Positions 5,036 to 22,235 of a DNA stretch of 45,911 bases are shown here, one piece after another. The position numbers and the translations under genes are program-made. The notes under the pieces were generated by a model that did no database searches, was not told the origin of the DNA, and saw nothing but the letters and a program-made list of their open reading frames with translations. This stretch comes from Paracoccaceae bacterium (GTDB lineage Bacteria > Pseudomonadota > Alphaproteobacteria > Rhodobacterales > Rhodobacteraceae). The stretch lies in assembly GCA_020447005.1 (NCBI GenBank), contig JAGRDO010000086.1, positions 1,374 to 47,284 on the forward strand, written 5' to 3'. Position 1 is the stretch's first letter, and every line of letters starts with the position of its first letter.

Positions 5036-5045
5036 TGCGGCCTCC

Positions 5046-6722: not shown

Positions 6723-6740
6723 GCCAAACCCCTTTCCGGT

Positions 6741-7742: not shown

Positions 7743-7748
7743 TCAGGG

Positions 7749-9005
7749 TCACCGGAAACGGTTGGGTGAAAACGGCGAAAGGTCGATGGCGGGGGCGGCG
7801 CCGGTCACAAGGTCGGCCACGATCCGGGCGGTGCCCGCCGACTGGGTCAGGCCCAGATGGCCATGACCGAAGGCGTAGATCACATCCCGAGACGCGGGGG
7901 CAGGGCCGATCACCGGCAGCGTGTCGGGCAGCGAGGGACGGTGGCCCATCCATTCCGTGCCGCCTTCGGTCTTCAGCCCCGGCATGAATTCGGCCGCGCG
8001 CTTCAGCATCGCGCGTGAACGCGCGTAATTCGGAGGCAGGTCGATGCCGCCAAGCTCGACCGCGCCGCCGATGCGGATGCCGGTGGCAAGCGGTGCGGCG
8101 ACAAAACCGTGGTCGGCAAAGGTGATATGGCGGCGCAGGTCGAACGCGCCGGGGGGCAGCGTTGTGTTGTAGCCGCGCTCGGCCTCCAGCGGGATCCTGT
8201 CACCGAGGCTTTTCGCGATGCGATGTGAAAAGGCGCCAGCGGCCAGCACGACCTTGCGCGCGGTTTCGGTCCGGCCATCGGTCAGGCGGACGGTCGCCGC
8301 CCCGGTTTCGGGCGCGATCGCGGCAACCTCGGCAATCTCGATCTTGCCGCCATCGCGCAAGAAGGCCTCGCCCAGGGCCAGCGTGTAAAGCTTTGGATCC
8401 GCAATCGCCCACCAGGCATCCGTCAGGATGGCATGGGTGAAGCGCGGGGAAAGCCCGGGCTGGGCAGAGGCAATTTCGTCCGCCCCGATCAGCGGGCGAT
8501 GGCTGTAGCCGTGACGCCCGGCATCCTGCCAATTCCGCCGGGCCGCGTCAAAGCCGCGGGCGCTTTCGAAGACGCTCATCTGCCCGGTCTTGCGCAGCAT
8601 GTCCAGCGTGCCGGTCTGGGCCATCAGATCTTCCAGCGCGGCGCGCGACTGAGCCATCAGCGCGGCCTGCGCCACTACCGAGGCGCGGACCCGGGCCGGC
8701 GTGCATTCGCGCGCGAAGCGGATCATCCACGGCAGGATCTTTGTCGCGTAGGCAAGCGGCACCGATAGCGGCCCCAGAGGGTCGACCAGCCATTTCGGCG
8801 ATTTCAGGAGAGTCCCCGGCGAGGCGAGCGGCTGGATCTCGCAGAAGGCAAACCCGCCGGCATTGCCCGCCGAGGTCCCGGCGGCGGGGCCCGCCCGGTC
8901 GATCACCGTCACCGAAAGCCCGCGTGCCAATGCGGTATTGGCGATGGAAAGACCTATGACACCGGCGCCGATGACGATCAGGTCAGTAGATACGGCGTCG
9001 GTCAC
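7749..9005 (-). CDS. FAD-dependent D-amino-acid oxidoreductase, probable cis-4-hydroxy-D-proline dehydrogenase
   Basis: A 418-residue DadA/DAO-type flavoprotein. The FAD-binding Rossmann motif is at the N-terminus (DLIVIGAGVIGLSIA), followed by a GGFAF segment, and the C-terminal FAD contact HGHLGLTQSAGTARIVADL closes the fold. Members in hydroxyproline clusters oxidise cis-4-hydroxy-D-proline to pyrroline-4-hydroxy-2-carboxylate, passing electrons to oxygen or the respiratory chain. It is the second gene of the minus-strand operon, between the deaminase and the epimerase, as that pathway requires. Substrate is inferred from context; the general D-amino-acid dehydrogenase assignment is firm. 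Confidence 0.87.
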   Translation of the reverse strand: MTDAVSTDLIVIGAGVIGLSIANTALARGLSVTVIDRAGPAAGTSAGNAGGFAFCEIQPLASPGTLLKSPKWLVDPLGPLSVPLAYATKILPWMIRFARECTPARVRASVVAQAALMAQSRAALEDLMAQTGTLDMLRKTGQMSVFESARGFDAARRNWQDAGRHGYSHRPLIGADEIASAQPGLSPRFTHAILTDAWWAIADPKLYTLALGEAFLRDGGKIEIAEVAAIAPETGAATVRLTDGRTETARKVVLAAGAFSHRIAKSLGDRIPLEAERGYNTTLPPGAFDLRRHITFADHGFVAAPLATGIRIGGAVELGGIDLPPNYARSRAMLKRAAEFMPGLKTEGGTEWMGHRPSLPDTLPVIGPAPASRDVIYAFGHGHLGLTQSAGTARIVADLVTGAAPAIDLSPFSPNRFR

Positions 9006-9042
9006 GTCGGTGCACCCCGGTGTCAGCTATTCTGCCGCATCA

Positions 9043-9954
9043 TCACGCGGCCCTGGCATATCTGGCAAGGTCCGGACGACAGGCGAGCCTTTCGCGGATC
9101 AGCGCCTCGACCCGGGCGCGGTGTTCGCCTGTCAATGCCATGCGCGGTGCGCGGACACGTTCGTTCGAACCGATCGCCATTGCCTCGGCCAGCTTGATCT
9201 GCTGGACAAGGAAGGTCGAGACATCGAGATCGAGCAGCGGGCGGAGCCAGCGATAAATTTCGCGCGCCTCGACGATGCGGCCGGCCTTTGCCAGATCGTA
9301 GATCGCCTGATTTTCCTTCGGAAAGGCGATCGAGACGCCGGAAACCCAGCCGTCGCACCCCATCAGCAGGGCTTCCAGCCCAAGGTTGTCCACCCCGGTC
9401 AGAACCTTGAAACGGTTGCCGACGGTGTTGAAGATCTCGGTGCAGCGCCGAATGTCATCACTGCTTTCCTTGATCGCCACCATCAGGGGGTTTTCGGCCA
9501 GTTCCAGCATCATCTCGGGCGTCACGTCGACGCGATAGCCGACGCGGTTCGAATAGATCATCACCGGCAGGCCGCCGGCATTGGCGATGGCGTTCAGGTT
9601 GGCGATCGTTTCGGCGCGGTTGGTGTGATAGATCGGCGACGGCACGACCATGATGCCATCCGCACCGGCCTTGGCGGCACGCGCGGCCAGAGCGCAGGCC
9701 TCGCGCGTTCCGGCCTCGGAAATCGTCAGAAGGGCGGGTTTTTTCCCGGCAACGGATTTGGCGGTCTTCAGCACCGAGAGCCGTTCGTCGGGCGACAGCA
9801 TGTTGCCTTCGCCAAGCGTGCCACAGGTGATAAGGCCCGCGTTCCCGGCATCGATCTGCAGGCCAAAGCAGCGCTCCATTTCCGCGTGATCAAGCTCTCC
9901 CGCGTCGGTGAACTTGGTCGTGACCGCGGGCATCATACCGCTCCACATGGGCAT
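9043..9954 (-). CDS. Pyrroline-4-hydroxy-2-carboxylate deaminase (DHDPS/NAL superfamily)
   Basis: A 303-residue TIM-barrel lyase of the dihydrodipicolinate synthase/N-acetylneuraminate lyase superfamily. The Schiff-base lysine is Lys162 in VAIKESS, the catalytic tyrosine is Tyr134 in MIYSNRVGY, and the GTLGEG phosphate/carboxylate loop is at 46-51. True DHDPS enzymes are usually slightly shorter, and the position first in a hydroxyproline operon points to the deaminase that converts pyrroline-4-hydroxy-2-carboxylate to 2-oxoglutarate semialdehyde. The start at 9954 has AGGAAGG just upstream; the open frame continues back into the divergent promoter region. The next enzyme, 2-oxoglutarate semialdehyde dehydrogenase, is not in the window. 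Confidence 0.88.
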   Translation of the reverse strand: MPMWSGMMPAVTTKFTDAGELDHAEMERCFGLQIDAGNAGLITCGTLGEGNMLSPDERLSVLKTAKSVAGKKPALLTISEAGTREACALAARAAKAGADGIMVVPSPIYHTNRAETIANLNAIANAGGLPVMIYSNRVGYRVDVTPEMMLELAENPLMVAIKESSDDIRRCTEIFNTVGNRFKVLTGVDNLGLEALLMGCDGWVSGVSIAFPKENQAIYDLAKAGRIVEAREIYRWLRPLLDLDVSTFLVQQIKLAEAMAIGSNERVRAPRMALTGEHRARVEALIRERLACRPDLARYARAA

Positions 9955-10018
9955 ATTCCTTCCTGAAAGGTCCGTCGGGCTGCGTCGCAGAGCAGAATCT
10001 GCGTGACATGCATAATGA

Positions 10019-10034
10019 ATATTGGATACAATAT
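10019..10034. promoter_or_regulatory. Perfect inverted repeat, candidate GntR/FCD operator
   Basis: ATATTGGATACAATAT is a perfect 6-bp inverted repeat around GATA, in an AT-rich island within GC-rich DNA. It sits between the divergent hydroxyproline operon and the GntR-family gene. A TTG...CAA half-site arrangement with a TA-rich centre is typical of FCD-type GntR operators. This location would allow the regulator to control both its own gene and the catabolic operon. Confidence 0.6.
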
Positions 10035-10062
10035 GCAATACCAAAAATTGGATGACGACCGG

Positions 10063-10722
10063 ATGCAGATCGACAGCGTGAACATTTCGCAAGGCGCCTC
10101 GGCGGCCACGATCATCTGCGATGCGCTGAGAAGGGCGATCATCGAAGGCCGCCTGAATGACGGCGACGCGTTGCGGCAGGATGAAATCGCCCGGATGTTC
10201 GGCACCAGCCGCATTCCCGTACGCGAGGCGATCGCGATGCTGGAGCAGCAGGGGCTGGTCGTTACCCAGCGCTACAAGGGCGCGGTTGTCGCGGGCATTT
10301 CACCGCAGGAAGCTGCCGAAATCTGGGATTTCCGCGCGCTTTTGGAAGGTCATGTGATCGAGGCCGCAGTTCCCCGCATGACAGCGGCGACATTTGCCCG
10401 CGCCCGCCGGCACCTTGATGCCTTCGCCAAGACCGCCAATCCCCGCGACTGGGGCGAATTGAACCGGCAGTTCCATACCACGCTCTATGCGGCGAGCGAT
10501 CTGAGCTATCATCTGACTGTGATCGACAAAGCCCTTGACCGGGTTGACCGCCTTTTGCGGGCGCAACTTTCGTTGTCGAACGGGCTTGCCCGCGCGACGG
10601 AAGAGCATGAGGCAATCCTGGCCGCGTGCGAGGCGGGAAATCCCGAGCAGGCCGGGCAGCTTACGCGCCAGCACATTCTGGGCGCAAAGGCCAATCTTCT
10701 GGCGCAGATCAACCGGGATTGA
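10063..10722 (+). CDS. GntR-family transcriptional regulator, FCD subfamily
   Basis: A 219-residue regulator. The winged helix-turn-helix spans about residues 10-75 (LRRAIIEGRLNDGDALRQDE, then FGTSRIPVREAIAMLEQQGL). The helical FCD effector domain follows; its metal/ligand histidines are likely within NRQFHTTLY and the EEHEAILAACE and RQHILGAK segments. FCD regulators usually sense small carboxylic or amino acids. The open frame reaches back to 10003 across the operator palindrome, so the ATG at 10063 is preferred, although no strong ribosome site is visible. It is divergent from the hydroxyproline operon and 378 bases before the Rieske operon; regulating the first is likely, the second possible. 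Confidence 0.87.
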   Translation: MQIDSVNISQGASAATIICDALRRAIIEGRLNDGDALRQDEIARMFGTSRIPVREAIAMLEQQGLVVTQRYKGAVVAGISPQEAAEIWDFRALLEGHVIEAAVPRMTAATFARARRHLDAFAKTANPRDWGELNRQFHTTLYAASDLSYHLTVIDKALDRVDRLLRAQLSLSNGLARATEEHEAILAACEAGNPEQAGQLTRQHILGAKANLLAQINRD

Positions 10723-11100
10723 ACGGCCGGCCGGCCGGTTCAGGCATAGCCGGCCACAGGTCCGAACGGCCGGCCCCGCCCCCGTTTCCCACACCTCTTG
10801 CACGGAAATCCTGCCGCTGAGCCGCGTCGGGATGTTCGGTTCCGATTGACAGCCGGGCCAAGGTATGAATGAATGATCGTACATTTATTCGCCGATCCAG
10901 TCTGGCGGGATCAGGGTTGGCCTTTCCCTTCCGTGGTGCAGGATGCCTGAACTTCCGATGCAAGCAGCTATGGAACCGACCGGGAAGACAAGGGGGCAAG
11001 CGGATTGTTTGCGCCTTCCGATGGCGAGGAAGGCGCAGCCCGAGGCACAGGGGCGGATACCGTTTCGCAGGAAACACGGGAAGCGGTGCGGGGCAACCTC
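10723..11100. other. Intergenic region upstream of the Rieske operon, with an imperfect palindrome
   Basis: No convincing gene is seen in these 378 bases. Just after the GntR stop there is a GC-rich hairpin (GAACGGCCGG with CCGGCCGGTTC) that may end its transcript. TTGACA at 10846-10851 is a good -35 hexamer, but no clear -10 box lies at the standard distance. At 10867-10890 there is a 24-base imperfect palindrome (18 of 24 positions symmetric, outer arms GAAT and ATTC, inner halves AATG and CATT), a candidate operator for the operon. The last 100 bases are GC-rich and featureless up to the ATG at 11101. Confidence 0.5.
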
Positions 11101-12222
11101 ATGACCGAGACATCCCCTTTGCTTGACCACTGCCCCGAAACGCTTCCGGCGGAAAGCTACCACGACCCGGAATGGTTCGCGCGGGAACAGCGCGCCATCT
11201 GGCGGCGAAGCTGGGTGAATGTCGGGCGTCTGAACGATCTGGCGCCGGGAACGATGCGGCGCCATGAAATCGGCGGCCAGAATGTGATCCTGTGCCGCGC
11301 GTCAGACGGCCGGCTTGGCGCGTTTCACAACACCTGCCGCCACCGGGGCGCCGAATTGTGCCCGGCCGATGAAAAGCCATTGGGCAAACTGATCACCTGC
11401 CCCTACCACAACTGGGCCTACGATATGTCGGGGCGTCTGGTTTCCACGGCCTTCGCAACGCCGACAGCGGATTTCGACAGGCAGGCGCACGGGTTGTTCC
11501 CCGTCCATGTCCGCCAATGGAACGGCTTCGTGTTTCTGTCCGTGGCGGATGAACCGCCAGAGCTTTGCCCCGATCTGGGGTTGTCCGCGCTGGACAACTG
11601 GCCAATGGACACGTTGCGCACCGGCCACCGGATCACCCGCGATCTGGATTGCAACTGGAAGATCTTCTGGGAAAACTACAATGAATGCCTGCACTGTCCG
11701 GGCATTCACCCCGAGCTTTGCGACATGGTGCCGATCTATCGCCAGGGGGTCATGGCCGCGAACGAGGCGCCGGGATGGGAAGCGGGGACACCGCAAGCGC
11801 CGACCCTGAAGGAAGGCGCGCGCAGCTGGACGATGTCGGGCGCCCCTTGCGGGCCGGAATTTGCCGGGCTGACGGCGCAGGAAAAGGCCAATGGCTACAA
11901 CTTCGTGACGGTTTACCCGACCATGTTCGTCGTCGCGCATGTGGATTACGTGCGCTCGGTCACGGTCACGCCGCTCGGCCCTGAACGCACCCGCCTGACA
12001 GCCGAATGGCTGTTCCCGGACGAAACGCTGGCGCAACCCGGCTTCGATGCGGCCGAGGTCGCCCGCTTTGCCACGCTGGTTCTCGATCAGGACGGGGCAG
12101 CCTGCGAGATGAACCAGCGCGGGCTGAAATCCGGGAAGTATCAGAGCGGCCGGCTGATGCCGCAGGAATTCGACATTCTGAAATTTCATAACTGGGTGCG
12201 GGCGCAGATGGAGCCTGCCTGA
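11101..12222 (+). CDS. Rieske non-heme iron oxygenase, alpha-subunit type (1)
   Basis: A 373-residue oxygenase. The Rieske [2Fe-2S] ligands are Cys79 and His81 in CRHRGAEL and Cys100 and His103 in CPYHNWAYD. The mononuclear iron site is in NWKIFWENYNECLHCPGIHP (His198 and His203), with the third, acidic ligand probably in the LDQDGAACEMN segment near residue 335. The ENYxECLHCPxxHP form is typical of oxygenases that demethylate quaternary amines, such as glycine betaine, stachydrine and carnitine, rather than ring dioxygenases with a beta subunit. No beta subunit and no reductase gene is nearby, so electrons must come from elsewhere. It is the first gene of an operon with a second Rieske protein and an importer. 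The substrate is unknown. Confidence 0.88.
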   Translation: MTETSPLLDHCPETLPAESYHDPEWFAREQRAIWRRSWVNVGRLNDLAPGTMRRHEIGGQNVILCRASDGRLGAFHNTCRHRGAELCPADEKPLGKLITCPYHNWAYDMSGRLVSTAFATPTADFDRQAHGLFPVHVRQWNGFVFLSVADEPPELCPDLGLSALDNWPMDTLRTGHRITRDLDCNWKIFWENYNECLHCPGIHPELCDMVPIYRQGVMAANEAPGWEAGTPQAPTLKEGARSWTMSGAPCGPEFAGLTAQEKANGYNFVTVYPTMFVVAHVDYVRSVTVTPLGPERTRLTAEWLFPDETLAQPGFDAAEVARFATLVLDQDGAACEMNQRGLKSGKYQSGRLMPQEFDILKFHNWVRAQMEPA

Positions 12223-12232
12223 GGGGAAGACG

Positions 12233-13450
12233 ATGAACACCGTTGCCAAGCCGGTTGCCGTGCCGAATGAATGGGATCGCCGGGGTCTGCCCGGATGGGC
12301 CTATCACTCCGCCGCATTGTTCGAGCTTGAGCGACTGGAAGTCTTTCTGACGCATTGGCAGGTCGTTGGTCATGTCAACGATATTCCCGCGCCGGGCGAC
12401 TGGCTGACCTTTGACATGCTGGGCGAGCGTGCGCTGGTGATCAGGGGCAAGGATCGCGAGGTGCGGGCGTTTCACAACCTCTGCCGTCATCGGGGCGCGC
12501 GACTGGCGGACGGGGCGCAGGGCCATTGCAAGGGCGCGATGGTCTGCCCGTTCCACGGCTGGGTCTACAACCTCGACGGCACATTGCGCGGTCCGGCCAG
12601 GCCGGAAACCTTCGGCGATCTCGATCGCGGCGAATTCGGGCTGAAGCCGGTCGAGATGGAAATCTGGCACGGGCTGATCTTTCTCAGGTTCCTTGCCGGG
12701 CCACAACCATCCGTGTCCAGGCTGATGGAGGCTTTCGAAGCCGATTTCGGCCACTATCGCGCCGAGGACCTGCTGCCTGCCGAAACCGGCTGGAGCGGTG
12801 ACAGCGTTCTGCCCGTCAACTGGAAGTCGGTCCGCGACGTGGACAACGAAGGCTATCACGTCGCCATGGCGCATCCTGCATTGCAGGATCTTTACGGCCG
12901 GACCTATCGCGACCTGACCTATCCGGGCGGCCTGTCACACTCGATCGCCGAATTCGGCGATACACCGGGGCGCCTCTGGTCCGTTCGCAATTATGTGAAG
13001 CTGAGCCCGGTTCACGATTGGCTGCCCGAAAGGCTGCGCCGGGCCTGGACCTATTACGGCATGTTCCCGAACACGGTCATCGCCTTTACGCCGGAAGGCG
13101 CGCAATATTACCACGATATTCCGCTGTCACCGGGCAAGACCAAACTGTCCGGGCGGATTTACCGTTATGCGCATGAAAGCCGCGAACAACGCGCGGCGCG
13201 TTATCTTGCCTACCGGATCGACCGTGACACATCGCAAGAGGACCAGCAGCTTTCGGTATGGTCGAACGAGTCGATGAAATCCTCGGCCTTCGAGGATTTT
13301 CATCTTTCCGACCTCGAATATGGCGTCCGGGCGCATCACGACGCTTTGCGCCGGATACTTCCGGTCGTGAAACTGGCCGATGCCCCGGATGAGGTCTCGA
13401 TGGCCGATCTGAACGACAAATTGCGTAGTGCCAACGCGAAATCCACTTAA
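12233..13450 (+). CDS. Rieske non-heme iron oxygenase, alpha-subunit type (2)
   Basis: A 405-residue oxygenase beginning ten bases after the first Rieske gene. Rieske ligands are Cys84 and His86 (CRHRGARL) and Cys105 and His108 (CPFHGWVYN). The catalytic iron motif is NWKSVRDVDNEGYHVAMAHP (His209 and His214), a different subtype from its neighbour, so this is not a simple tandem duplicate. The acidic ligand is probably in the EDQQLSVWSNE region. Two different one-component-like alpha subunits in one operon suggest two successive oxidations or demethylations, or a hetero-oligomer. No ferredoxin or reductase is encoded nearby. Family assignment is firm and substrate unknown. Confidence 0.88.
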   Translation: MNTVAKPVAVPNEWDRRGLPGWAYHSAALFELERLEVFLTHWQVVGHVNDIPAPGDWLTFDMLGERALVIRGKDREVRAFHNLCRHRGARLADGAQGHCKGAMVCPFHGWVYNLDGTLRGPARPETFGDLDRGEFGLKPVEMEIWHGLIFLRFLAGPQPSVSRLMEAFEADFGHYRAEDLLPAETGWSGDSVLPVNWKSVRDVDNEGYHVAMAHPALQDLYGRTYRDLTYPGGLSHSIAEFGDTPGRLWSVRNYVKLSPVHDWLPERLRRAWTYYGMFPNTVIAFTPEGAQYYHDIPLSPGKTKLSGRIYRYAHESREQRAARYLAYRIDRDTSQEDQQLSVWSNESMKSSAFEDFHLSDLEYGVRAHHDALRRILPVVKLADAPDEVSMADLNDKLRSANAKST

Positions 13451-13495
13451 AGTCACAAGAAAGACTGGCGCAAGAAAGTTGGGAGGAAAGACACA

Positions 13496-14599
13496 ATGAC
13501 AAAGTTGACAAGACGATCCACACTCGCAGTCATCGGCGGCACCTTGGCGACACCATATGTGCGACCGTCCTGGGCGCAGTCCGGCACGGTGAACGTCTAT
13601 AACTGGGCCGATTATATCGGCGAGACGACGCTGGCCGATTTTGAGGCGCAAACCGGGATTGGCGTTGTCTATGACACCTATTCCTCGGCCGAAGAAGCGC
13701 AGGCCAAGATGCTGGCAGGGTCGACGGGCTATGACGTTGTGGATCATGCCGGCATCGACATGCCGCGGGCGATTGCCGCTGGCATCTATGAGCCGCTCGA
13801 CAAGTCGATGCTGCCCAACTGGAAGAACCTTGACCCCGAAATCCTGCGTATTCTTTCGGGCTGGGACGAGGGCAACCAATACGGCGTGCCCTACATGTGG
13901 GGCTCGGTCGGGATGACCTATAACGTCGATCTGGTGAACGAGCGTATTCCGGGCGCCGACATGACAACCCTTGACCTGATCTTCAAACCGGAAAATGCGG
14001 CCAAGCTTGCCGATTGCGGCATCTCCATCCTGGATAGCCCGGCCGACATCATGCTGATGGTGCTTCGCTACCTCGGGCTGGACGGCGACACCACCAATCT
14101 CGACGACTATCAGAAGGTGGTCGAGGCGTTCAAACCGATCCGTCAGTACATCCGCACCTTCGACAACACCAACTATCTGAATGCCATTCCGAACGGCGAG
14201 CTTTGTGCGGTGAACAACTGGTCGGGCGATTATGCGACGGCGGCAGGCCGCGCGGCCGAGGCCGGAATCGAAATGAACCTTGCCTATTTCGTGCCAAAGA
14301 CCGGCGCGCCGGCATGGGTGGATTGCATGTGCATCACCTCGGACGCGCCGAACCGCGAAAACGCCTACAAGTTCATGGACTTCATGATGCAGGCCGAAGC
14401 GGCGGCCGGGTGCACCAATTACACCTATTATGCCTCCGGCAACCTTGCGGCGAAAGAGTTCATCCTGCCCGAAATCCTTGAAGACCCGGCGGTCTCCCCG
14501 GATGCCGAGACCATCGGGCGGATGTGGGCGCCGAAACCGTTCTCGGAAGAACAGGAACGCGCCATGACCCGCGCGTGGCAGGACATCAAGTCGGGCTGA
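13496..14599 (+). CDS. Periplasmic solute-binding protein, polyamine (PotD/PotF) type
   Basis: A 367-residue binding protein. It begins with a twin-arginine-like signal (TRRSTLAVIGG, cleavage likely after PSWAQ near residue 28). The mature part starts VNVYNWADYIGE, the hallmark of PotD/PotF proteins, and continues with YDVVDHAGIDMPRAIAAGIY and the YGVPYMWGSVGMTYN segment. In PotD/PotF, several acidic and aromatic residues hold the positively charged amine; here WADYIG and a Trp-rich WGSVG segment are kept. It is followed by ATPase and two permease genes, so the importer is complete. Given the Rieske genes beside it, the substrate may be a methylated or otherwise cationic amine rather than putrescine or spermidine. 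Confidence 0.9.
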   Translation: MTKLTRRSTLAVIGGTLATPYVRPSWAQSGTVNVYNWADYIGETTLADFEAQTGIGVVYDTYSSAEEAQAKMLAGSTGYDVVDHAGIDMPRAIAAGIYEPLDKSMLPNWKNLDPEILRILSGWDEGNQYGVPYMWGSVGMTYNVDLVNERIPGADMTTLDLIFKPENAAKLADCGISILDSPADIMLMVLRYLGLDGDTTNLDDYQKVVEAFKPIRQYIRTFDNTNYLNAIPNGELCAVNNWSGDYATAAGRAAEAGIEMNLAYFVPKTGAPAWVDCMCITSDAPNRENAYKFMDFMMQAEAAAGCTNYTYYASGNLAAKEFILPEILEDPAVSPDAETIGRMWAPKPFSEEQERAMTRAWQDIKSG

Positions 14600-14646
14600 T
14601 CGAGGAGTCTCTGCCAGTGTGACGACAAGATGACGGAGAGACCGCG

Positions 14647-15813
14647 ATGAACGAAACCGCAGCTACGGTGACGGCAGGTTCCAAGGGCAAGGCCGAGGCG
14701 CCTGTCCGGCAGAAAGCCGATGAACCCCATTTCATACGGATCGAGGGGGTCACCAAACGCTTCGGAACGTTTACCGCGGTCTCTGACGTCAATCTGGAAA
14801 TCCGGAAGGGAGAGATCTTTTCCCTTCTGGGCGGCTCGGGCTGCGGCAAGACAACGCTTTTGCGGATGCTTGCGGGGTTCGAGGAGCCGACGAAGGGACG
14901 TATCTATATCGACGGTCAGGACATGACCGACCTTCCCGCCTACGAGCGGCCCGTGAACATGATGTTCCAGTCCTATGCCCTGTTCCCCCATATGACCGTT
15001 GAAAAGAACGTGGCCTATGGGCTGAAGCACGAAAAGATGACGGCGGCCGGGCGTCAGGATCGCGTGCGCGAGATGCTGGCCCTTGTCCAGCTTACCGAGT
15101 TTTCGCATCGAAAACCGCACCAGATTTCCGGTGGCCAGCGCCAGCGCGTCGCCCTTGCCCGCGCACTGGCCCGTCAACCCAAACTTCTGCTGCTGGATGA
15201 ACCGCTTGCCGCGCTGGACAAGAAACTGCGCGAACATACGCAGTTCGAACTGATGGACATTCAGGACAAGACCGGCACGACCTTCATCGTCGTGACCCAT
15301 GACCAGGAAGAGGCCATGACATTGTCGTCGCGGCTTGCGGTCATGGACAAGGGGCAGATCAGGCAGATCGGAACCGCGACGGATGTCTATGAATATCCGA
15401 ATTCGAAGTTCGTGGCGGGGTTCATCGGTTCGATCAACCTGTTCGATGCCCGGGTGACCTCGGTCGGCGCCGAAACCGCGAAAGTCGAGGTTCCGGAGCT
15501 GGGCGGCGAGATCGAGGCGAGAGCCATCGATGGGCTGGAGGCCGGACAGGGGATTTCAATGGCGGTGCGGCCGGAAAAGATCGTGCTGTCGCGGCAAAAG
15601 CCGAAATCGGGGAACGCGGTTGCCGGCGTCGTCCGCGATCTTGCCTATTTCGGCAAGGATTCGCTTTACCGTGTCGCGACCGGCACGGGGCGGGTCATCT
15701 CGGTCAGTTCGGTCAACGCCCGCCGCGTGGGCGAGGCCGAGCGCGTCGCGGACTGGGAGGACGAGGTCTGGTTTTCTTTCGATCCGTCGGCTGCGATCCT
15801 CTTGAAGGAATAG
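14647..15813 (+). CDS. ABC transporter ATP-binding protein, PotA/PotG type
   Basis: A 388-residue ATPase. After a roughly 30-residue hydrophilic extension comes a standard nucleotide-binding domain: Walker A GGSGCGKTT, Q-loop MMFQSYALFPHMTV, signature ISGGQRQRVALARAL, Walker B LLLLDEPLAALD and the switch His in VVTHDQEEAM. The C-terminal TOBE-like domain of the Pot/CysA group follows from about residue 275. It energises the importer formed by the neighbouring binding protein and two permeases. The next gene starts four bases after its stop. Confidence 0.93.
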   Translation: MNETAATVTAGSKGKAEAPVRQKADEPHFIRIEGVTKRFGTFTAVSDVNLEIRKGEIFSLLGGSGCGKTTLLRMLAGFEEPTKGRIYIDGQDMTDLPAYERPVNMMFQSYALFPHMTVEKNVAYGLKHEKMTAAGRQDRVREMLALVQLTEFSHRKPHQISGGQRQRVALARALARQPKLLLLDEPLAALDKKLREHTQFELMDIQDKTGTTFIVVTHDQEEAMTLSSRLAVMDKGQIRQIGTATDVYEYPNSKFVAGFIGSINLFDARVTSVGAETAKVEVPELGGEIEARAIDGLEAGQGISMAVRPEKIVLSRQKPKSGNAVAGVVRDLAYFGKDSLYRVATGTGRVISVSSVNARRVGEAERVADWEDEVWFSFDPSAAILLKE

Positions 15814-15817
15814 GCGC

Positions 15818-16756
15818 ATGTCACCTTCGCATCACGACACGCCGCTTGAACGCTGGTTTCACCGTCGGGGCTGGATCAGGATCACCATCGGCACCCCCTA
15901 TCTCTGGCTGATCTTCTTCTTTCTGCTTCCCTTCATCATCGTCCTTGCGATGAGCTTCGCGACCCGCACCCCGACGGCACCGCCCTTTTCCTTCGGCGGC
16001 GAAAACCCGGTCCTGAATTTCGCCCATTACCAGCGGCTGTTTTCGGACGACCTTTATATCCGCGCCTATCTGACCTCGGTCGCGAACGCGGCCTTTGCGA
16101 CGTTTTTGTGCCTCTTGATCGGTTATCCGATGGCACTGGGGCTGACACGGGTCAGCCGGTCATGGCGCAATGTCCTGCTGATGCTGGTGATCCTGCCCTT
16201 CTGGACATCCTTTCTGCTGCGCGTCTACGCCTGGATGGGCCTCATGGGGTCCAACAGCTGGTTCAACAAGCTTTTGACCTCGATCTACAACGGGATCGTC
16301 CCGGCGGATTGGGCGCTGCGTTATATCCCGATGATGAACACGAATTTTGCCGTGATCCTTGTCACCGTCTATTCCTATCTGCCCTTCATGATCCTGCCGC
16401 TCTACGCCAATCTCGAAAAGCTGGACTTTTCGCTGAACGAGGCGGCGATGGACCTTGGTTCCCGGCCCTTCCGGGTGTTTCGCGATGTCACGCTGCCCCT
16501 GTCGGTGCCCGGCATCATCGCGGGTTCGATGCTGGTCTTCATCCCCGCATCGGGCGAATTGATCATTCCTTCGCTGGTCGGATCGTCCTCGCGCCCCATG
16601 ATCGGCCGCGTTATCGCCGACGAATTCACCTCGGCGCGAAGCTGGCCAATGGCATCCGCCGTGGCGATCGCGCTTTTGGTTCTGCTCGTGGTTCCGCTGA
16701 TGATCTACACCTATTACGACGCAAAATCCTATGAAAAGCAGCGGGAGGAAGCGTGA
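15818..16756 (+). CDS. ABC transporter permease, PotB/PotH type
   Basis: A 312-residue inner-membrane protein with about six hydrophobic segments; the first is WLIFFFLLPFIIVLAMSFA. The cytoplasmic EAA loop, which docks the ATPase, is LNEAAMDLGSRPFRVFRDVT around residue 208. The family's FIPASGELIIPSLVGSS segment follows. It overlaps the next permease gene by one base, so the two are translationally coupled and presumably form a heterodimeric pore. Confidence 0.92.
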   Translation: MSPSHHDTPLERWFHRRGWIRITIGTPYLWLIFFFLLPFIIVLAMSFATRTPTAPPFSFGGENPVLNFAHYQRLFSDDLYIRAYLTSVANAAFATFLCLLIGYPMALGLTRVSRSWRNVLLMLVILPFWTSFLLRVYAWMGLMGSNSWFNKLLTSIYNGIVPADWALRYIPMMNTNFAVILVTVYSYLPFMILPLYANLEKLDFSLNEAAMDLGSRPFRVFRDVTLPLSVPGIIAGSMLVFIPASGELIIPSLVGSSSRPMIGRVIADEFTSARSWPMASAVAIALLVLLVVPLMIYTYYDAKSYEKQREEA

Positions 16757-17595
16757 TGCGGCAACGCCCGGTCTTCCTGATCACCATGCTTTGCTTCGGC
16801 TTTGCCTTTTTCTACATCCCGATCCTGTCGATGATGGTCTATTCCTTCAACGGATCGCGGCTTGCCACGGTCTGGGGCGGTTTTTCCGTCAAGTGGTACG
16901 TATCGCTTCTGTCGAACCGGCAGATCCTCAAGGCGGTGATGCTGTCGCTTCAGATTGCGGTGACAAGTGCTACCTTCGCGACGATCCTTGGGACGATGGC
17001 CGGGATCGCCATCGCGCGGTTCAAGACATTCCGGGGGCGGACACTGTTTTCCGGCCTGATCACCGCGCCTCTGGTCATGCCGGAGGTGATCACGGGGATC
17101 GCCTCGCTGATGCTTTTCATCCTGATGGCCGAATATATCGGCTGGCCCGCCCAACGCGGGGTCACGACAGTGACGCTGGCCCATATCACCTTTTCGATGG
17201 TCTTCGTCTCGACCATCGTGCATTCGCGGCTGGTTCAGACGGACGACTCCATCGAAGAGGCCGCGATGGACCTCGGGTCGCGCCCCTGGCAGGTGATGAA
17301 GGACATCACCCTGCCGGTGATTTCTCCGGCCATCGTTTCGGGCTGGCTTCTGGCCTTCACCATCTCGCTCGACGATGTGGTGATCACCAATTTCACCACC
17401 GGTCCCGGCACCACGACCCTGCCGATCCTGATCTGGTCGAAGGTCAAGCTGGGCGTCACGCCGGACGTGAATGCGCTGGCGACGATCATGGTCTGCATCG
17501 TCGGCATCGGCATCACCATCGCCGGCATTATCCTGACCCGGGCCGAGAAACGCCGCGATCTTGATGCGCAACTGGCTTATCAGGCCAACAAATGA
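16756..17595 (+). CDS. ABC transporter permease, PotC/PotI type
   Basis: A 279-residue membrane protein, partner of the preceding permease. It has a long N-terminal hydrophobic helix (FLITMLCFGFAFFYIPILSM), about six membrane segments in all, and the EAA loop IEEAAMDLGSRPWQVMKDIT. The ISLDDVVITNFTTGPG segment is typical of PotC/PotI. The start at 16756 was chosen because GGGAGGAA lies at the right distance; a GTG three bases earlier is possible. The stop overlaps the start of the next gene (ATGA), which ties the downstream protein to the transporter operon. Confidence 0.92.
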   Translation: MRQRPVFLITMLCFGFAFFYIPILSMMVYSFNGSRLATVWGGFSVKWYVSLLSNRQILKAVMLSLQIAVTSATFATILGTMAGIAIARFKTFRGRTLFSGLITAPLVMPEVITGIASLMLFILMAEYIGWPAQRGVTTVTLAHITFSMVFVSTIVHSRLVQTDDSIEEAAMDLGSRPWQVMKDITLPVISPAIVSGWLLAFTISLDDVVITNFTTGPGTTTLPILIWSKVKLGVTPDVNALATIMVCIVGIGITIAGIILTRAEKRRDLDAQLAYQANK

Positions 17596-18488
17596 CGGTT
17601 CAGGGCGGCGAGGATCATCTGGCCTGGATCGAGTTGCAGCTTCCGCTCGGGCTGCCGGGATCGGGCCGGCAAAGATACGCTGCCGCCATGCATCTGTACC
17701 GTCGCGGATTGTTGTCGGCCGACATTCTGGAGGCCTACCGGGTCTGTTCGCCAAAGGACTGGGAGGATCCGGACCTTCTGCTTGCCGCGCGCCGGATCAG
17801 GCCGGTCGAAAAGGTCGCCGTCCCGGCTGACCGCGCAATCGCCCGCCTGATCGAGGAAATCGACCGCTATCTTTCAGGGTTTTCCGGCGTGGGGGTTGCC
17901 GAAGTGCGCGGGCGGATCGCCCGCTGGTCTGGCGGTGGGGTCCGTCCGAAACCGGGGAAAGGCAACCCGGTCGTCGACGCCAATCTCGGGCCGGCACTTT
18001 CTGCGCTCGAACAAACCCATCCGGCGCTGGCCGATGCGATATCCGTGGCATCGCCGCACCTGAGCTGGATCACCTACGGCGAATATCCACCGGATGAGAT
18101 CGGTGCTGCGTTTCTTTCGGGCCATGCCTTTGCCTCGCTTATCGGGGGCGGTGCCCCGATCCACGCGGCCGAGTTCGATCTGGGCCTGTTCATCATCGCA
18201 CCGGACGTTCTTTACCGCGATCATGCCCATCCGGCGCCGGAGCTTTACGCACCATTGACCGGTCCGCACGGATGGCGGTTCGGCCCCGAAACGCCCCTTG
18301 TCATCAAGCCCGCGCATGTCCCGGTGTGGAACCGCCCGCACGCGCCGCACATGACCAAGGTCGGACCGGTGCCGTTCCTGTGTATCTTCGGCTGGACACA
18401 GGATGTGGACCTGCCGGCCTATGTGCTGCCGGCCCGGGACTGGGCAGGGCTGGAGTCCCTGAAAATCGGAGAGCGGGATGGAAGCTGA
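17592..18488 (+). CDS. Cupin-DLL (DMSP lyase) superfamily protein of unknown substrate
   Basis: A 298-residue protein. Residues 199-224 hold the first metal motif of DMSP-lyase-like cupins: Tyr208, then HAHPAPELYAPLTG, giving His211, His213, Glu217, Tyr219 and Gly224 (HxHxxxExYxxxxG). The second motif lies in IKPAHVPVWNRPHAPHM, with His250 or His253 the likely fourth ligand. The N-terminal 130 residues are helical and not recognised. The protein is longer than DddQ (about 200) and DddL (about 230). The superfamily includes enzymes that cleave dimethylsulfoniopropionate to acrylate and DMS, but also members with other activities, so a beta-elimination or cupin-type reaction on the imported compound is plausible and DMSP cleavage is not proven. 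It starts inside the stop of the permease gene and overlaps the methyltransferase gene by 11 bases, so it belongs firmly to this operon. Confidence 0.78.
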   Translation: MTVQGGEDHLAWIELQLPLGLPGSGRQRYAAAMHLYRRGLLSADILEAYRVCSPKDWEDPDLLLAARRIRPVEKVAVPADRAIARLIEEIDRYLSGFSGVGVAEVRGRIARWSGGGVRPKPGKGNPVVDANLGPALSALEQTHPALADAISVASPHLSWITYGEYPPDEIGAAFLSGHAFASLIGGGAPIHAAEFDLGLFIIAPDVLYRDHAHPAPELYAPLTGPHGWRFGPETPLVIKPAHVPVWNRPHAPHMTKVGPVPFLCIFGWTQDVDLPAYVLPARDWAGLESLKIGERDGS

Positions 18489-19263
18489 AAATGGCGAACT
18501 TTATCACCGCCGCCTGATCGGCATGCTGGAAGCGATCTGGGGCGAAGGTTTCCTGTCGCCCGGCGGCAGGGGCGAGGTGGCCCGTCTGGTCGAGGGCAGC
18601 GATTTTCTGGGCCGGAACGTGCTTGATATCGGCTGTGGCGCCGGCGGGATCGACATCGCGCTGTGCCAGGCCCACGGGGCCGGCTATGTCTGCGGCATCG
18701 ATGTCGAGGACGGCGTGCTGAACCGCGCCCGCGAACTGATCAGCGAAGCCGGGCTGGAATCGCGGATCGGCTGCCTGAAGGTCGCGCCCGGTCCGCTGCC
18801 GTTTCCGCCGGCAACGTTCGACATCGTCTTTTCAAAGGATTCGATCGTCCACATCCCCGACAAGCACGCGCTGATGCGCGAGGTCTGCCGCGTGCTTCGC
18901 CCCGGCGGGTGGTTCGTGGCCTCGGACTGGCTGATCGGGCATGACGGAGAGCCGTCGAAGATGATGCGCGATTATATTGCGGCCGAAGGGCTGGATTTCG
19001 GCATGGCCTCGCCCGCCCGCTACCGAGAGGCGATGGAAGCGGCGGGATTTGTCGATGTGCATGTGGTCAGCCGGAACGGCTGGTACCGAGAGGTTGCCAA
19101 GACCGAGCTTGCGCGCTTGCAGGGCCCGGTCGGCGATGCCGCCGCGGCGCTGGTCGGGCGTGATTTCGTCGACGAGAACATCGGTATCTGGGGCCGGATG
19201 ATTCCGGTTCTGGACAGTGGCGAACACTGTCCGACGCATCTGAAAGCCAGAAAACCCGGCTGA
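18478..19263 (+). CDS. SAM-dependent class I methyltransferase, phosphoethanolamine-methyltransferase-like
   Basis: A 261-residue methyltransferase. The SAM-binding motif I is NVLDIGCGAGGIDIAL near residues 44-58, motif II region FDIVFSKDSIVHIPDKHALM and motif III EVCRVLRPGGWFVASDW. The segment IWGEGFLSPGG upstream of motif I is characteristic of methyltransferases that act on phosphoethanolamine or related amines. The gene overlaps the DLL-family gene by 11 bases and ends the operon. A methyl-adding enzyme in an operon with two probable demethylases is odd; it may instead move a methyl group onto a toxic thiol or amine product, or use the imported compound as acceptor. Substrate is unknown. 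Confidence 0.85.
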   Translation: MEAENGELYHRRLIGMLEAIWGEGFLSPGGRGEVARLVEGSDFLGRNVLDIGCGAGGIDIALCQAHGAGYVCGIDVEDGVLNRARELISEAGLESRIGCLKVAPGPLPFPPATFDIVFSKDSIVHIPDKHALMREVCRVLRPGGWFVASDWLIGHDGEPSKMMRDYIAAEGLDFGMASPARYREAMEAAGFVDVHVVSRNGWYREVAKTELARLQGPVGDAAAALVGRDFVDENIGIWGRMIPVLDSGEHCPTHLKARKPG

Positions 19264-19606
19264 TCTGACCCGCGAAGCGCCCGAAAGACAGGTGTGCACC
19301 CCCGCACAATGCATATGCAATCGTCGCCGGCGGCCGGACCTTCTTGACCTGCTGCCGGGAAGTTGAACGCGCGCACACCCGGTATCCGGCATTGTACCCC
19401 GGATCCGCCCTGATTTTCAGCTGATTTGCCGCCCCCCGGCGACGGGGGGTGGCCCCATGCGCGCTGTCAATGGCACGAACGTGAACTTCACCGCGATTCC
19501 GGTGTGAGCGGACTGTGATTTCCGATCCGGGCAGGCCGCCCGCATGTTCTTTGCATCGAGCCCGGAGACAGATGCTCTGGCCCGTTAGCAAACAAAGGAA
19601 ATGACC
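19264..19606. other. Intergenic region with a GC hairpin, no gene seen
   Basis: These 343 bases hold no convincing coding frame. A strong hairpin at 19428-19453 (10-bp stem, GCCGCCCCCC with GGGGGGTGGC, one wobble, 6-base loop) lacks a T-run but may mark the end of the methyltransferase operon transcript. The ribosome site AAAGGA of the following small gene is at 19594-19599. No clear promoter was recognised. Confidence 0.45.
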
Positions 19607-19840
19607 ATGAAGACGAAATTGATCACCGCCGCCGCGCTTGTTCTTGCAACCACGAGCGGAGCCTTCGCGATGAGCGCGCACGATGTCCTGAGCCCGTCGG
19701 ATGCGTATGAGGTCAAGCGCTATGTCCCCCAGGCCGATCTGACATCGCTGACGCCCGGGCAGATCGCCATGATTTCCGCGGCCCTTCACAATGGCAGTGA
19801 AGATGGCCGAGGGTACCAGATCCGCTCGATCCTGCAGTGA
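19607..19840 (+). CDS. Small secreted protein of unknown function
   Basis: A 77-residue protein with a clear Sec signal peptide (MKTKLITAAALVLATTSGAF, cleavage likely after GAFA) and a mature part of about 54 residues, HDVLSPSDAYEVKRYVPQAD and then LTSLTPGQIAMISAALHN. It has no cysteines and no membrane anchor, so it is probably periplasmic. The ATG at 19607 was chosen over 19601 because AAAGGA is correctly spaced only for the former. It is monocistronic, with its own terminator at 19867. Proteins with this layout are common in Rhodobacteraceae, but I know no function. Confidence 0.75.
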   Translation: MKTKLITAAALVLATTSGAFAMSAHDVLSPSDAYEVKRYVPQADLTSLTPGQIAMISAALHNGSEDGRGYQIRSILQ

Positions 19841-19866
19841 CGGCCTGACCCCCACGGCCGGAAACG

Positions 19867-19895
19867 GGGCGCTCCGCGGAAGCGGGGCGCCTTTT
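19867..19895 (+). terminator. Rho-independent terminator after the small secreted protein
   Basis: A 10-bp stem with one wobble (GGCGCTCCGC with GCGGGGCGCC), a GGAA loop and TTTT. It lies 27 bases after the stop codon. Confidence 0.85.
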
Positions 19896-20084
19896 CCGGC
19901 GCCGGAGCCATCGGGCCCGCCGATCACGGCAGATCACGAGATGCGGACCTTATTGTAATGGTCTTGGCCTCGGGACATGCTTGTTGCAAATTCGGGCAGG
20001 ACGCCGAAGGGGACTGGATTTGATCAAGCACGAATTGGATTTGGCCGCATCAGGGCTGATGCGGGCCGAAAAGGGCCGCCATTC

Positions 20085-22235
20085 ATGAAACGGCCTGCCC
20101 TGTTTTTCGTTTTCGTCACCATCGCGGCTGTGCTCATCATCGCGATCGGGCGCAACCCGCCCGATCTGGAAATGTTGCGCGCCCGGCTTGAGGGGGTGAG
20201 TGCGTGGCGCGCCGATCGGCCGGTCTTTGTCGCGGCCACGTTTTTTCTGGCCTATGTGGCAGTGACCGCGCTGTCGCTGCCGCTGGCGGTCTGGATGACG
20301 CTGGCGGCGGGGGCGCTTTTCGGGTTCTGGTGGGGGCTGGCGCTGGTTTCTTTCGCATCGACAACGGGGGCGACGCTGGCCTTTCTTGCCTCGCGCTATC
20401 TTCTGTCGGACTGGGTGCATGAAAAGTTCGGCAGCCGGCTGACGGCAATAACGGAAGGGATGCGGCGCGACGGGCCCTTCTATCTGTTCACCCTGCGGCT
20501 TATCCCGGCGATCCCGTTCTTTGCGATCAACCTCCTGATGGGTTTGACGCCGATCCGGGCCTTGACCTTCTACCTTGTCAGTCAGGCCGGCATGCTTGCC
20601 GGTACGGCTGTTTATGTGAATGCGGGCACCCAGCTTGCCCAGCTTGACAGCTTGTCGGGCATTCTTTCCCTGCCTCTTTTGCTGTCATTCGCGCTTCTGG
20701 GTATTTTCCCCTGGGTCGCGCGGTTCGTCCTTGGGCTGGTCAAGCGCCGCCGCGTCTATTCCGGCTGGACGCGGCCAGCGCGCTATGACCGCAATCTTGT
20801 GGTGATCGGTGCCGGTGCAGCCGGGCTTGTCTCGGCCTATATCGCGGCTGCGGTGAAGGCCAGGGTGACGCTGGTCGAGGCGCACAAGATGGGCGGCGAC
20901 TGCCTGAACTATGGCTGTGTGCCGTCCAAGGCGCTGATCAGATCGGCCAAACTGGCCCGCCAGATACGGCATGCCGATCAATACGGCCTGACGGCCTCGG
21001 TGCCGGATTATTCCTTCGGAAAGGTCTTTGAACGTATCCGTGCGGTGGTTGCAGCGATCGAGCCGCATGACAGCGCGGAGCGTTATCAGGGGCTGGGTGT
21101 CGAGGTGCTGCAGGGCTACGCGAAGCTGATCGATCCCTGGACGGTCGAGATTACCGATGCCGATGGCGCGTCGCGGCGCCTGACCAGCCGCGCGGTGATC
21201 CTCGCGACCGGCGCCGCGCCTTTCGTTCCGCCGTTGCCCGGACTTGACGAGGTGGGCTATCTCACTTCGGATACGCTTTGGGACGCGATGGGCACGCGCG
21301 ATGCGGCGCCGAAGCGGCTTGTCGTCCTTGGCGGCGGGGCGATCGGATGCGAACTGGCGCAAAGCTTCGCGCGGCTTGGATCAGAGGTCACGCAGATCGA
21401 GATGCTGCCCCGTATCCTCCATCGCGAGGATGAAGAGGTCGCGGCCCTTGTCAAAGCCTCGATGGAGGCAGACGGCGTCACGGTTCTGACGGGCCACAAG
21501 GGGGTGCGCCTCGGCACGGACAGCAAGGGAAAGTGGATCGAGGTCGAGGCGGATGGCACAACCAGCCGGATCGCGTTCGATGACATATTGGTGGCCGTCG
21601 GACGTGCGGCACGGCTGAACGGATACGGGCTTGAGGACCTTGGCATTGCCACCGGCCGCGTGATCGAGACGAACGAGTTTCTGGAAACGAAATATCCCAA
21701 TATCCTTGCGGCGGGCGATGTGGCCGGGCCATACCAGTTCACCCATACGGCCGCGCATCAGGCATGGTTCGCCTCGGTCAACGCGCTTTTTGGCACATTC
21801 AAGCGGTTCAAGGCCGATTATCGGGTAATCCCATGGGCGACCTTTACCGATCCCGAAGTGGCGCGGGCCGGGTTGAACGAACAGGAGGCGCGGGAAAAGG
21901 GAATTGCCTATGAGGTGACGCGCTATGGCATCGACGACCTTGATCGCGCCATCGCCGACGGTACGGCCCATGGTTTCGTCAAGGTGCTGACCCCGCCGGG
22001 CAAGGACAGGATCCTTGGCGTTACCATCGCAGGCGAACATGCGGGCGATCTGATGGCCGAATTCGTTCTGGCGATGAAGCACGGGCTGGGGCTGGGCAAG
22101 ATCCTTGGCACGATCCACAGCTATCCGACGCTGGCCGAGGCCAACAAATTCGCCGCCGGTGAATGGCGCAAGGCGCATGTGAATGCGCGTGCACTTGCGT
22201 TTCTGGAGCGTTTTCACACCTGGCGGAGGGGCTGA
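20085..22235 (+). CDS. Fusion of a VTT/TVP38 membrane domain with a mercuric-reductase-like flavoprotein
   Basis: A 716-residue protein. Residues 1-225 form a VTT (TVP38/TMEM64, YdjX/YdjZ-like) membrane domain with the family core AGALFGFWWGLALVSFASTT and the FTLRLIPAIPFFAINLLMG loop. Residues 236-716 are a pyridine-nucleotide disulfide oxidoreductase: FAD motif VVIGAGAAGL (241-250), redox pair CLNYGC (Cys273, Cys278), NAD motif VVLGGGAIGCELAQ, and the C-terminal His-Glu base pair in HSYPTLAEAN. The metal-binding N-terminal domain and C-terminal cysteine pair of true mercuric reductases are absent, so mercury reduction is unlikely. The ATG at 20085 matches the start of the membrane domain; the frame is open back to 19977. 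The next gene starts directly after its stop. In E. coli, VTT proteins YdjX and YdjZ sit beside ynjBCD and ynjF, as here. Confidence 0.88.
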   Translation: MKRPALFFVFVTIAAVLIIAIGRNPPDLEMLRARLEGVSAWRADRPVFVAATFFLAYVAVTALSLPLAVWMTLAAGALFGFWWGLALVSFASTTGATLAFLASRYLLSDWVHEKFGSRLTAITEGMRRDGPFYLFTLRLIPAIPFFAINLLMGLTPIRALTFYLVSQAGMLAGTAVYVNAGTQLAQLDSLSGILSLPLLLSFALLGIFPWVARFVLGLVKRRRVYSGWTRPARYDRNLVVIGAGAAGLVSAYIAAAVKARVTLVEAHKMGGDCLNYGCVPSKALIRSAKLARQIRHADQYGLTASVPDYSFGKVFERIRAVVAAIEPHDSAERYQGLGVEVLQGYAKLIDPWTVEITDADGASRRLTSRAVILATGAAPFVPPLPGLDEVGYLTSDTLWDAMGTRDAAPKRLVVLGGGAIGCELAQSFARLGSEVTQIEMLPRILHREDEEVAALVKASMEADGVTVLTGHKGVRLGTDSKGKWIEVEADGTTSRIAFDDILVAVGRAARLNGYGLEDLGIATGRVIETNEFLETKYPNILAAGDVAGPYQFTHTAAHQAWFASVNALFGTFKRFKADYRVIPWATFTDPEVARAGLNEQEAREKGIAYEVTRYGIDDLDRAIADGTAHGFVKVLTPPGKDRILGVTIAGEHAGDLMAEFVLAMKHGLGLGKILGTIHSYPTLAEANKFAAGEWRKAHVNARALAFLERFHTWRRG

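Follow-up and report, generated by a model that had tools for sequence, protein, structure and literature searches.

Gene content and layout of the operon

The stretch of DNA analysed here, hereafter the window, comprises 45,911 nucleotides from a Paracoccaceae bacterium (GenBank assembly GCA_020447005.1, contig JAGRDO010000086.1, positions 1,374 to 47,284) and harbours an operon of eight open reading frames (ORFs), all on the plus strand (11101–19263, with positions as given in the first-pass annotation). These encode two Rieske oxygenases (R1 and R2), an ATP-binding cassette (ABC) importer of the PotFGHI type, a cupin protein of the dimethylsulfoniopropionate (DMSP) lyase type and an S-adenosylmethionine (SAM)-dependent methyltransferase (MT; Table 1). 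The operon is genuine, conserved and more than a chance adjacency, and we consider it probable that it is the module for uptake and first attack in the breakdown of a cationic amine, methylated and probably quaternary.

R1 and R2 stand 10 bases apart, R2 and potF 45, potF and potG 47 (the largest gap in the operon) and potG and potH 4; potH overlaps potI by 4 bases, potI the cupin gene by 4 and the cupin gene MT by 11. These coordinates bear out the first-pass description of eight same-strand genes with short gaps (at most 47 bases) and overlapping junctions, and its domain calls agree with Pfam for all eight genes. The G+C content of the operon is 61.4%, against 64.3% for the remainder of the window. 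An Rfam scan of 9000–20200 returned no match, terminator-like sites in the region (ten) did not rise above shuffled sequences (mean 7.7) and a promoter scan of the operon region added nothing. A reductase search with FAD_binding_6 gave four matches in the same genome, none of them in the operon.

Table 1 Features of the operon, in window positions.
Feature	Position	Strand	Basis
R1, Rieske oxygenase alpha subunit, apparently group V type	11101..12222	+	PF00355, PF00848
R2, second Rieske oxygenase	12233..13450	+	PF00355, PF00848; motif; tree
PotF-like substrate-binding protein, acidic anchors and aromatic box	13496..14599	+	SBP_bac_8; closest solved PotF 7oyv
PotG/PotA-like ABC ATPase	14647..15813	+	ABC_tran and TOBE_2; TIGR01187
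PotH-like permease	15818..16756	+	BPD_transp_1
PotI-like permease	16753..17595	+	BPD_transp_1
Two-part protein: N-terminal domain of ~60 residues and DMSP_lyase-type cupin	17592..18488	+	PF16867, residues 123–263
N-terminal part of the cupin protein (first 85 codons)	17592..17846	+	Profile search
MT, SAM-dependent methyltransferase	18478..19263	+	Methyltransf_11/25; amine N-methyltransferase fold

Recurrence across genomes

The family was surveyed in 248 genomes from 247 genera, with the operon’s own genome (G000) included in every count. Thresholds were E 1e-60 for R1 and R2, 1e-50 for MT and 1e-70 for a GcvT-like protein linked to the operon in its relatives; the cupin was counted at full length and at least 50% identity. 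On this basis the cupin occurs in ten genomes, R1 in 20, R2 in 31, MT in 29 and the linked GcvT-like gene in 25. R1 and R2 occur together in 19 genomes (2.5 expected), R2 and GcvT in 20 (3.1 expected) and GcvT and MT in 21 (2.9 expected), where expectations assume independence and are uncorrected for shared ancestry, so that P values are indicative only. All ten cupin genomes carry R1 and R2, nine carry GcvT and eight carry MT. Chance adjacency, one of the findings that the first-pass annotation had held out as overturning its reading, is discounted by the recurrence of the gene order at nine other loci (below); the overlaps across the 248 genomes also far exceed independence. In the wider class, R2 occurs in seven of 337 genomes (E 1e-90, own genome included), two of them at 40–42% identity; six of the eight plasmid records with R2 were examined.

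The order R1-R2-potF-potG-potH-potI-cupin recurs at nine other loci (L034, L035, L036, L037, L038, L050, L040, L042 and L043), the cupin being scored as present if at least its N-terminal domain is, and MT lies in the same stretch at five of them (L034, L036, L037, L050 and L042). Marivivens-type loci (L029, L031 and L032) keep R1-R2-cupin and MT with a different set of substrate-binding protein (SBP) and ABC genes; the stretch at L030 stops after the cupin. In G175 MT lies far from the operon (L118). In G068 it is on a different contig (L117), where it adjoins the terminal part of an amidohydrolase gene and is therefore perhaps contiguous with the operon. G077, G155 and G121 gave no MT match at E 1e-50. 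R1 stands without R2 at L111, L112, L113 and L116. The eight-gene set is not indivisible, and MT is its least faithful member: the first-pass question whether the same order recurs with all eight genes together has a positive answer for the order and only a partly positive one for the full set, since MT and R1 are also found apart. L094 and L041 belong to one genome, and the R2 of the genome of L114 (G092) sits on L097.

Two dissimilar Rieske oxygenases

In CntA, Y203 is reported to contact the quaternary ammonium, E205 to bridge electron transfer and C206 and C209 to lie near the iron; the same accounts describe position 203 as Tyr or Phe in clade Va and Asn in clade Vb demethylases, and the Cys pair as present in some group V members (PMC7948474, PMC10952381). 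R1 aligns here as ENYNECLHC, with equivalents of Tyr203, Glu205, Cys206 and Cys209 in all 22 copies (motif ENY.ECLHC). It combines Rieske and Ring_hydroxyl_A domains with the bridging Glu, the Cys pair and the Tyr at 203 that characterise group V, this Tyr standing in place of the Asn of clade Vb. Its best solved relatives are 3n0q, 3vca (Stc2) and 4qup, followed by 6y8j (CntA). Judged by these residue marks, R1 appears to be a Rieske oxygenase of group V (quaternary-amine) type.

R2 has the signature RDVDNEGYH in 39 of 41 copies (34/34 in the first set), the two copies at L131 being the ones that deviate. Because the bridging Glu is kept in these 39 copies while position 203 is Asp and the Cys pair is absent, R2 looks like a separate subtype that should not be filed in group V, and the label ‘betaine demethylase’ seems unsupported. 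The first-pass remark that Rieske proteins of the first type often demethylate betaines suits R1, with its group V residues; R2, with Asp at 203 and no Cys pair, need not be such an enzyme. In the R2 tree, the Marivivens-type R2 nests inside the clade of the window’s R2 (clade support 0.999). Against the cut-off of 670 bits for GbcA (NF058607), R1 scores 183.2 and R2 122.3. The motif sets were gathered at a minimum of 36% identity over at least 250 aligned residues (lowest kept, 48%), exclude L001–L027, L056–L085 and duplicate loci, and take in seven R2 copies added later, five of which match.

A third kind of Rieske protein, with the motif ENYNECYHC and hence the Tyr, Glu and Cys pair, occurs at L053 (18050–19267), L097 (10532–11758) and L115 (9160–10386), which are sister-clade R2 clusters without the cupin. 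It is 25–37% identical to R1 or R2 and stands beside ABC genes and R2.

The cupin protein and its small N-terminal domain

The cupin part matches DMSP_lyase (PF16867) at 63.1 bits against a gathering score of 27, and H211, H213, E217, Y219 and H253 are invariant in all six aligned sequences, giving a His/His/Glu/His metal motif. The nearest solved DMSP lyases are remote (best E 2e-6), no NCBIfam family was matched at E 1e-3, and the cupin is gone from L042, L043 and L095, where the N-terminal domain and R2 remain. The DMSP or sulfonium branch proposed in the first-pass annotation finds no footing in so remote a likeness.

The N-terminal domain, of some 60 residues (consensus GSGR.RYAAAM...LE.YR...D.EDP), is fused to the cupin at 14 loci and forms a separate small ORF at 11, near-identical Marivivens-type loci each being counted singly; the separate ORFs sit near R2 or GcvT in other genomes. 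For one stand-alone copy (L055), neither NCBIfam (at E 1e-10) nor Pfam (at E 1e-4) returned a match. A profile of the domain finds it at 23 of the 24 loci of the window’s R2 clade, the 24th genome carrying it on another contig, and at none of the 12 loci of the sister R2 clade at E 0.1; the profile was built from loci that it then finds, and only the sister-clade absence is informative. Besides the window (Table 1), loci with the domain include L043, L052, L054, L055, L090, L091, L093 and L096. As far as sequence can tell, this is an undescribed domain, fused here to a metal cupin, that is tied to R2 and not to the cupin and tracks one R2 clade. Because its distribution follows that clade, it is best read as a putative R2 partner.

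The PotFGHI-type importer

The closest solved structure to the binding protein is E. coli PotF (7oyv, E=7e-91), and the ATPase exceeds the cut-off of TIGR01187 potA (378.3 against 355.6 bits). Together with the PotH- and PotI-like permeases, these matches support the polyamine-type (Pot) importer called in the first pass. All four Pot equivalog cut-offs are missed: 321.1 of 636 bits for PotF, 425 of 613 for PotG, 300.6 of 489 for PotH and 323.1 of 476 for PotI.

The positions of the PotF acidic anchors, which we take to be Asp39, Asp247 and Asp278, are acidic in all 16 PotF-type SBPs, the window protein included; 23 non-PotF-type SBPs, from R2, core or MT loci, have Gly, Thr/Ser/Val/Leu and Cys there. 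Three Trp and Tyr314 at PotF site positions are kept in 39/39 SBPs (59 table rows, with repeated proteins counted once). The window SBP differs from PotF at the positions of what are presumably Ser85, Ser87 and Phe88, and has Trp at the position of Phe276. Because the Marivivens-type R2, nested in the window clade, goes with an SBP that lacks the acids, the aromatic box is a likelier holder than the acids of any ligand that the two share, and binding of that kind would suit a methylated ammonium more than a simple diamine.

A linked folate core

At nine loci (L034, L036, L037, L038, L040, L042, L043, L050 and L094) R1 is immediately preceded, on its own strand, by a GcvT-like gene. One or two genes for CrtI-like flavoproteins come ahead of the GcvT-like gene, and where the stretch reaches far enough there are also a class III aminotransferase gene and a divergent TetR gene of BetI-like type. 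At L035 the TetR gene is present and this core absent, and its genome (G077) has no GcvT match. The best match of the linked GcvT-like protein is the folate domain of trimethylamine N-oxide (TMAO) demethylase; the TetR regulator is BetI-like at 96.7 bits against a cut-off of 201.3. The GcvT-like protein and two CrtI-like flavoproteins may form a complex. MttB-like proteins are also found among the genes adjoining the operon in relatives. Demethylation of glycine betaine by cobalamin methyltransferases has been described (PMC12478193).

The window itself has no core genes. Another contig of the same genome (C2, locus L086) carries genes for an SBP, permeases, an ATPase, a TetR regulator, an aminotransferase, FAD1, FAD2, GcvT and an MttB-like protein. 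Because the FAD2, GcvT and MttB of L086 are closest to the Marivivens-type cluster, where the core adjoins R1-R2-cupin-MT (L029 and L031), the window operon is likely a peripheral module and L086 its core, and the two would work together.

Plasmids of Shinella, Rhizobium, Ensifer and Parasedimentitalea carry R2 clusters that comprise an ABC importer, aminotransferase, TetR, FAD1, FAD2 and GcvT, the Ensifer record being unannotated and its gene content read by homology. The culturable Fuscovulum ytuae also has the cluster on a plasmid (NZ_CP124537). Other R2 loci hold old yellow enzyme (OYE)-type flavin oxidoreductases, amine-oxidase-like or DAO-type flavoproteins and a GcvT/SoxA-like protein of 819 residues, several of these labels resting on homology to one tested member. 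Taken together, the R2 neighbourhoods appear to be methyl-amine and polyamine surroundings, which would fix the class of the substrate and not the substrate itself. Among labels given to neighbours, ‘TMADH-like’ was dropped as evidence of N-methyl chemistry, the best matches being FadH/OYE-type (mycofactocin OYE family, below cut-off); ‘DMGDH-like’ (L093, L101 and L120) is based on the GcvT/SoxA-like C-terminal half of the L101 protein only; ‘MAO-like’ was assigned by eye, two proteins tested giving no NCBIfam match at E 1e-40; and the ‘AmaA-like’ protein scores 328.7 bits against a cut-off of 600.

An Amidohydro_3 gene lies between the cupin and MT genes, or after the cupin gene, at L034, L037, L038, L050 and L041, with a fragment at L035; its counterpart in the window’s genome is elsewhere (G000:C19, 54% identity). 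The gene also occurs beside a separate polyamine-type ABC importer at L137 (G175) and L138 (G018), and this adjacency hints that the substrate of its product is an amide, or something related, that has been imported. Four loci (L102, L103, L104 and L120) combine the core and MT with a gene for a PhyH-type oxygenase, which sits between the aminotransferase and MT genes, and no R2 is present in the stretch; perhaps this oxygenase replaces a Rieske enzyme there. The PhyH label comes from Pfam for the L103 copy, to which the others are 73–76% identical, and in G024, the genome of L120, R2 shares a contig with MT, some 37 kb away. Near the cluster or MT there are genes for a DeoC-like aldolase and for an aldehyde dehydrogenase of unusual length (784–790 residues where complete) at L037 (by Pfam) and at L114 and L117 (recognised by eye).

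Proposed function and its rivals

From the observed gene set, its conservation, the residue signatures and the MT fold we infer a substrate class, a series of reactions and a division of labour between two contigs. The PotFGHI-type importer would take in the amine, held by the aromatic box; R1, with O2 and electrons from a reductase encoded elsewhere, would remove a methyl group or cleave a C–N bond beside the quaternary nitrogen; and R2, assisted by the small domain that is its putative partner (part of the cupin protein here), would make a second oxidative attack. The products would then enter a core consisting of the class III aminotransferase, two CrtI-like flavoproteins and the GcvT-like folate protein, which would send the remaining N-methyl carbon to tetrahydrofolate and convert the amine to an aldehyde; L086 would supply such a core in this genome. 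Of the first-pass proposal, oxidation of a cationic methylated compound remains the likeliest theme, given the R1 residues and the GcvT-like, MttB-like and BetI-like neighbours, and the sulfonium branch is unsupported.

Several observations weigh against this proposal. The signals from R1 are mixed, as its overall similarity is highest to Stc2 and 3n0q, both with Asn at 203, yet it carries the Tyr of CntA, and R2 lacks two group V marks, a Tyr/Phe or Asn at 203 and the Cys pair. In only 15 of the 20 R1 genomes are R1 and R2 found within 30 kb of each other (adjoining in 12), 11 of the 31 R2 genomes have no GcvT match, MT occurs without R2 in ten of 29 MT genomes (six of these also without GcvT), and a genome of the same genus (G010) has none of the five genes searched (cupin, R1, R2, MT and GcvT-like). 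At L098, R2 has beside it an agmatinase gene that exceeds its cut-offs and two genes of the glutamine synthetase family, and homologues occur at L128. An amine N-methyltransferase is also an odd member of a demethylating pathway: over its whole length MT matches amine N-methyltransferases of the phosphoethanolamine and sarcosine type, at 18–22% identity, and it scores 67.7 bits against a cut-off of 550 for the sarcosine/dimethylglycine N-methyltransferase NF041675. Methyl transfer as a step of breakdown, as envisaged in the first pass, is doubtful in view of a fold shared with enzymes that add methyl groups to amines.

The polyamine-like features might be taken at face value, with putrescine, spermidine or agmatine imported, a C–N bond cleaved by R2 (with R1) and transamination following. 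The acidic anchors in all 16 PotF-type SBPs would suit this, as would the agmatinase and glutamine-synthetase-family genes at L098 and L128 and another gene of that family beside the lone R1 at L113 (best match gamma-glutamylputrescine synthetase, under cut-off; all genes of this family fall below their cut-offs), and the potFGHI system of R. pomeroyi is reported to import cadaverine, putrescine and spermidine (PMC10130141). Plain polyamines nevertheless strike us as unlikely, if by no means negligible, because the Marivivens-type R1-R2-cupin-MT set goes with an SBP that lacks all three acids and because GcvT-like, MttB-like and BetI-like partners are difficult to account for if no N-methyl groups are involved. 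Less likely again is a scheme in which MT primes an imported, partly methylated polyamine-like amine by N-methylation for C–N cleavage by R1, R2 and its small partner attack the other amine end, and folate recovers the methyl group. By analogy with CntA, the conserved Tyr of R1 would then fit the quaternary ammonium so formed as the C–N bond is cut. If this were true, a SAM methyltransferase would be activating an amine for its own breakdown, R2 with its partner would represent a new Rieske class and the CrtI-like and GcvT-like proteins a new complex.

We find it harder still to credit that the substrate is an N-methylpyridinium acid such as homarine, or another N-methyl pyridine alkaloid, and that its ring is what the Rieske oxygenases attack. 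Hosts of the homarine pathway reportedly include Rhodobacterales, which would favour it, but its operon is said to be common in SAR11, in contrast to R2, which is sparse both in the family (31/248 genomes at E 1e-60) and in the class (7/337 at E 1e-90), and R1 resembles oxygenases of aliphatic quaternary amines. A conserved homarine pathway in environmental bacteria is mentioned as cited work in PMC13390433. A biosynthetic role, in which MT would methylate the imported amine and the Rieske enzymes would tailor it to an osmolyte or signal, has in its favour the fold that MT shares with choline- and betaine-forming N-methyltransferases and its statistical tie to the cluster. It is very unlikely all the same, since the importer, GcvT-like folate protein, aminotransferase and BetI-like regulator point to breakdown, and G077 and G155 retain R1, R2, the importer genes and the cupin although no MT was found in them. 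Least probable of all is breakdown of DMSP or another sulfonium compound by the cupin: PF16867 above its cut-off and the invariant metal motif speak for it, and the remote lyase match, the lack of an NCBIfam family at the threshold given above and the three loci that have lost the cupin speak against it.

Breakdown of a methylated, probably quaternary, amine remains the reading that we favour. Methylated amines are described as an important share of marine dissolved organic nitrogen (PMC13390433), and for R. pomeroyi 18 of 126 organic-carbon importers are reported as verified, with most unassigned (PMC10130141). A cluster that combines a pair of Rieske signatures with a new small domain and a folate core, and that is so well conserved in Rhodobacteraceae and on rhizobial plasmids, would mark a pathway. 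It also illustrates that labels such as PotF-type or DMSP-lyase-type can be misleading in operons of this kind.

Hydroxyproline genes and other neighbours

On the minus strand at 4004–9936 lies a cluster for three hydroxyproline isomers, with a trans-3-hydroxy-L-proline dehydratase, a cis-3-hydroxy-L-proline dehydratase and a 4-hydroxyproline epimerase, each over its NCBIfam cut-off, and D-amino acid dehydrogenase-like and DapA-like genes, both under cut-off. Homologues of the two dehydratases, the epimerase and the DapA-like protein were not found beside the operon at the other loci examined (E 1e-20). Hydroxyproline betaine, which the first pass had entertained as a substrate on the strength of this neighbourhood, was rejected for want of any recurring link, as none of these four genes adjoins the operon at the other loci examined. 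A GntR gene at 10063–10722 may serve the hydroxyproline cluster, because several relatives of the operon carry BetI-like TetR genes instead.

At the start of the window, 1–390 holds the terminal part of a gene for L-piperidine-6-carboxylate dehydrogenase (257 bits across 129 residues), and a gene at 1560–2642 resembles saccharopine dehydrogenase by eye, with no NCBIfam match at E 1e-30; from these two genes, lysine catabolism near the operon is possible. On the minus strand, 26416–29451 encodes a PRK06148 protein of 1011 residues, over cut-off, whose C-terminal half is a class III aminotransferase.

Comparison with known systems

The open-licence literature searched yielded no described pathway with this gene set, which we call undescribed within the limits of that search, and no match to the cupin-DLL family name used in the first pass. 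The importer has the same four components as the PotFGHI putrescine importer and keeps the acidic anchors, but falls below all four equivalog cut-offs. With the cupin DMSP lyases, which we take to be those named DddQ, DddK and DddW, the window cupin shares PF16867, H-x-H-x3-E and the His of a second motif; unlike them, it is fused to an N-terminal domain without a Pfam match, and it is remote in sequence. MT has the low identity given above to phosphoethanolamine and sarcosine/dimethylglycine N-methyltransferases, and its setting looks catabolic. The linked core shares a GcvT-like folate domain with sarcosine oxidase and TMAO demethylase, but has it as a separate protein beside two CrtI-like flavoproteins. 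Compared with the stachydrine (Stc2), glycine betaine (GbcA) and carnitine (CntA) systems, the operon has two dissimilar Rieske proteins, a PotFGHI-type importer, a cupin and MT, and no reductase gene, while R1 shares their domains, the bridging Glu, the Cys pair and the Tyr of CntA. By this analogy, the operon most likely works like the Rieske-based quaternary-amine pathways, whose marks R1 bears.

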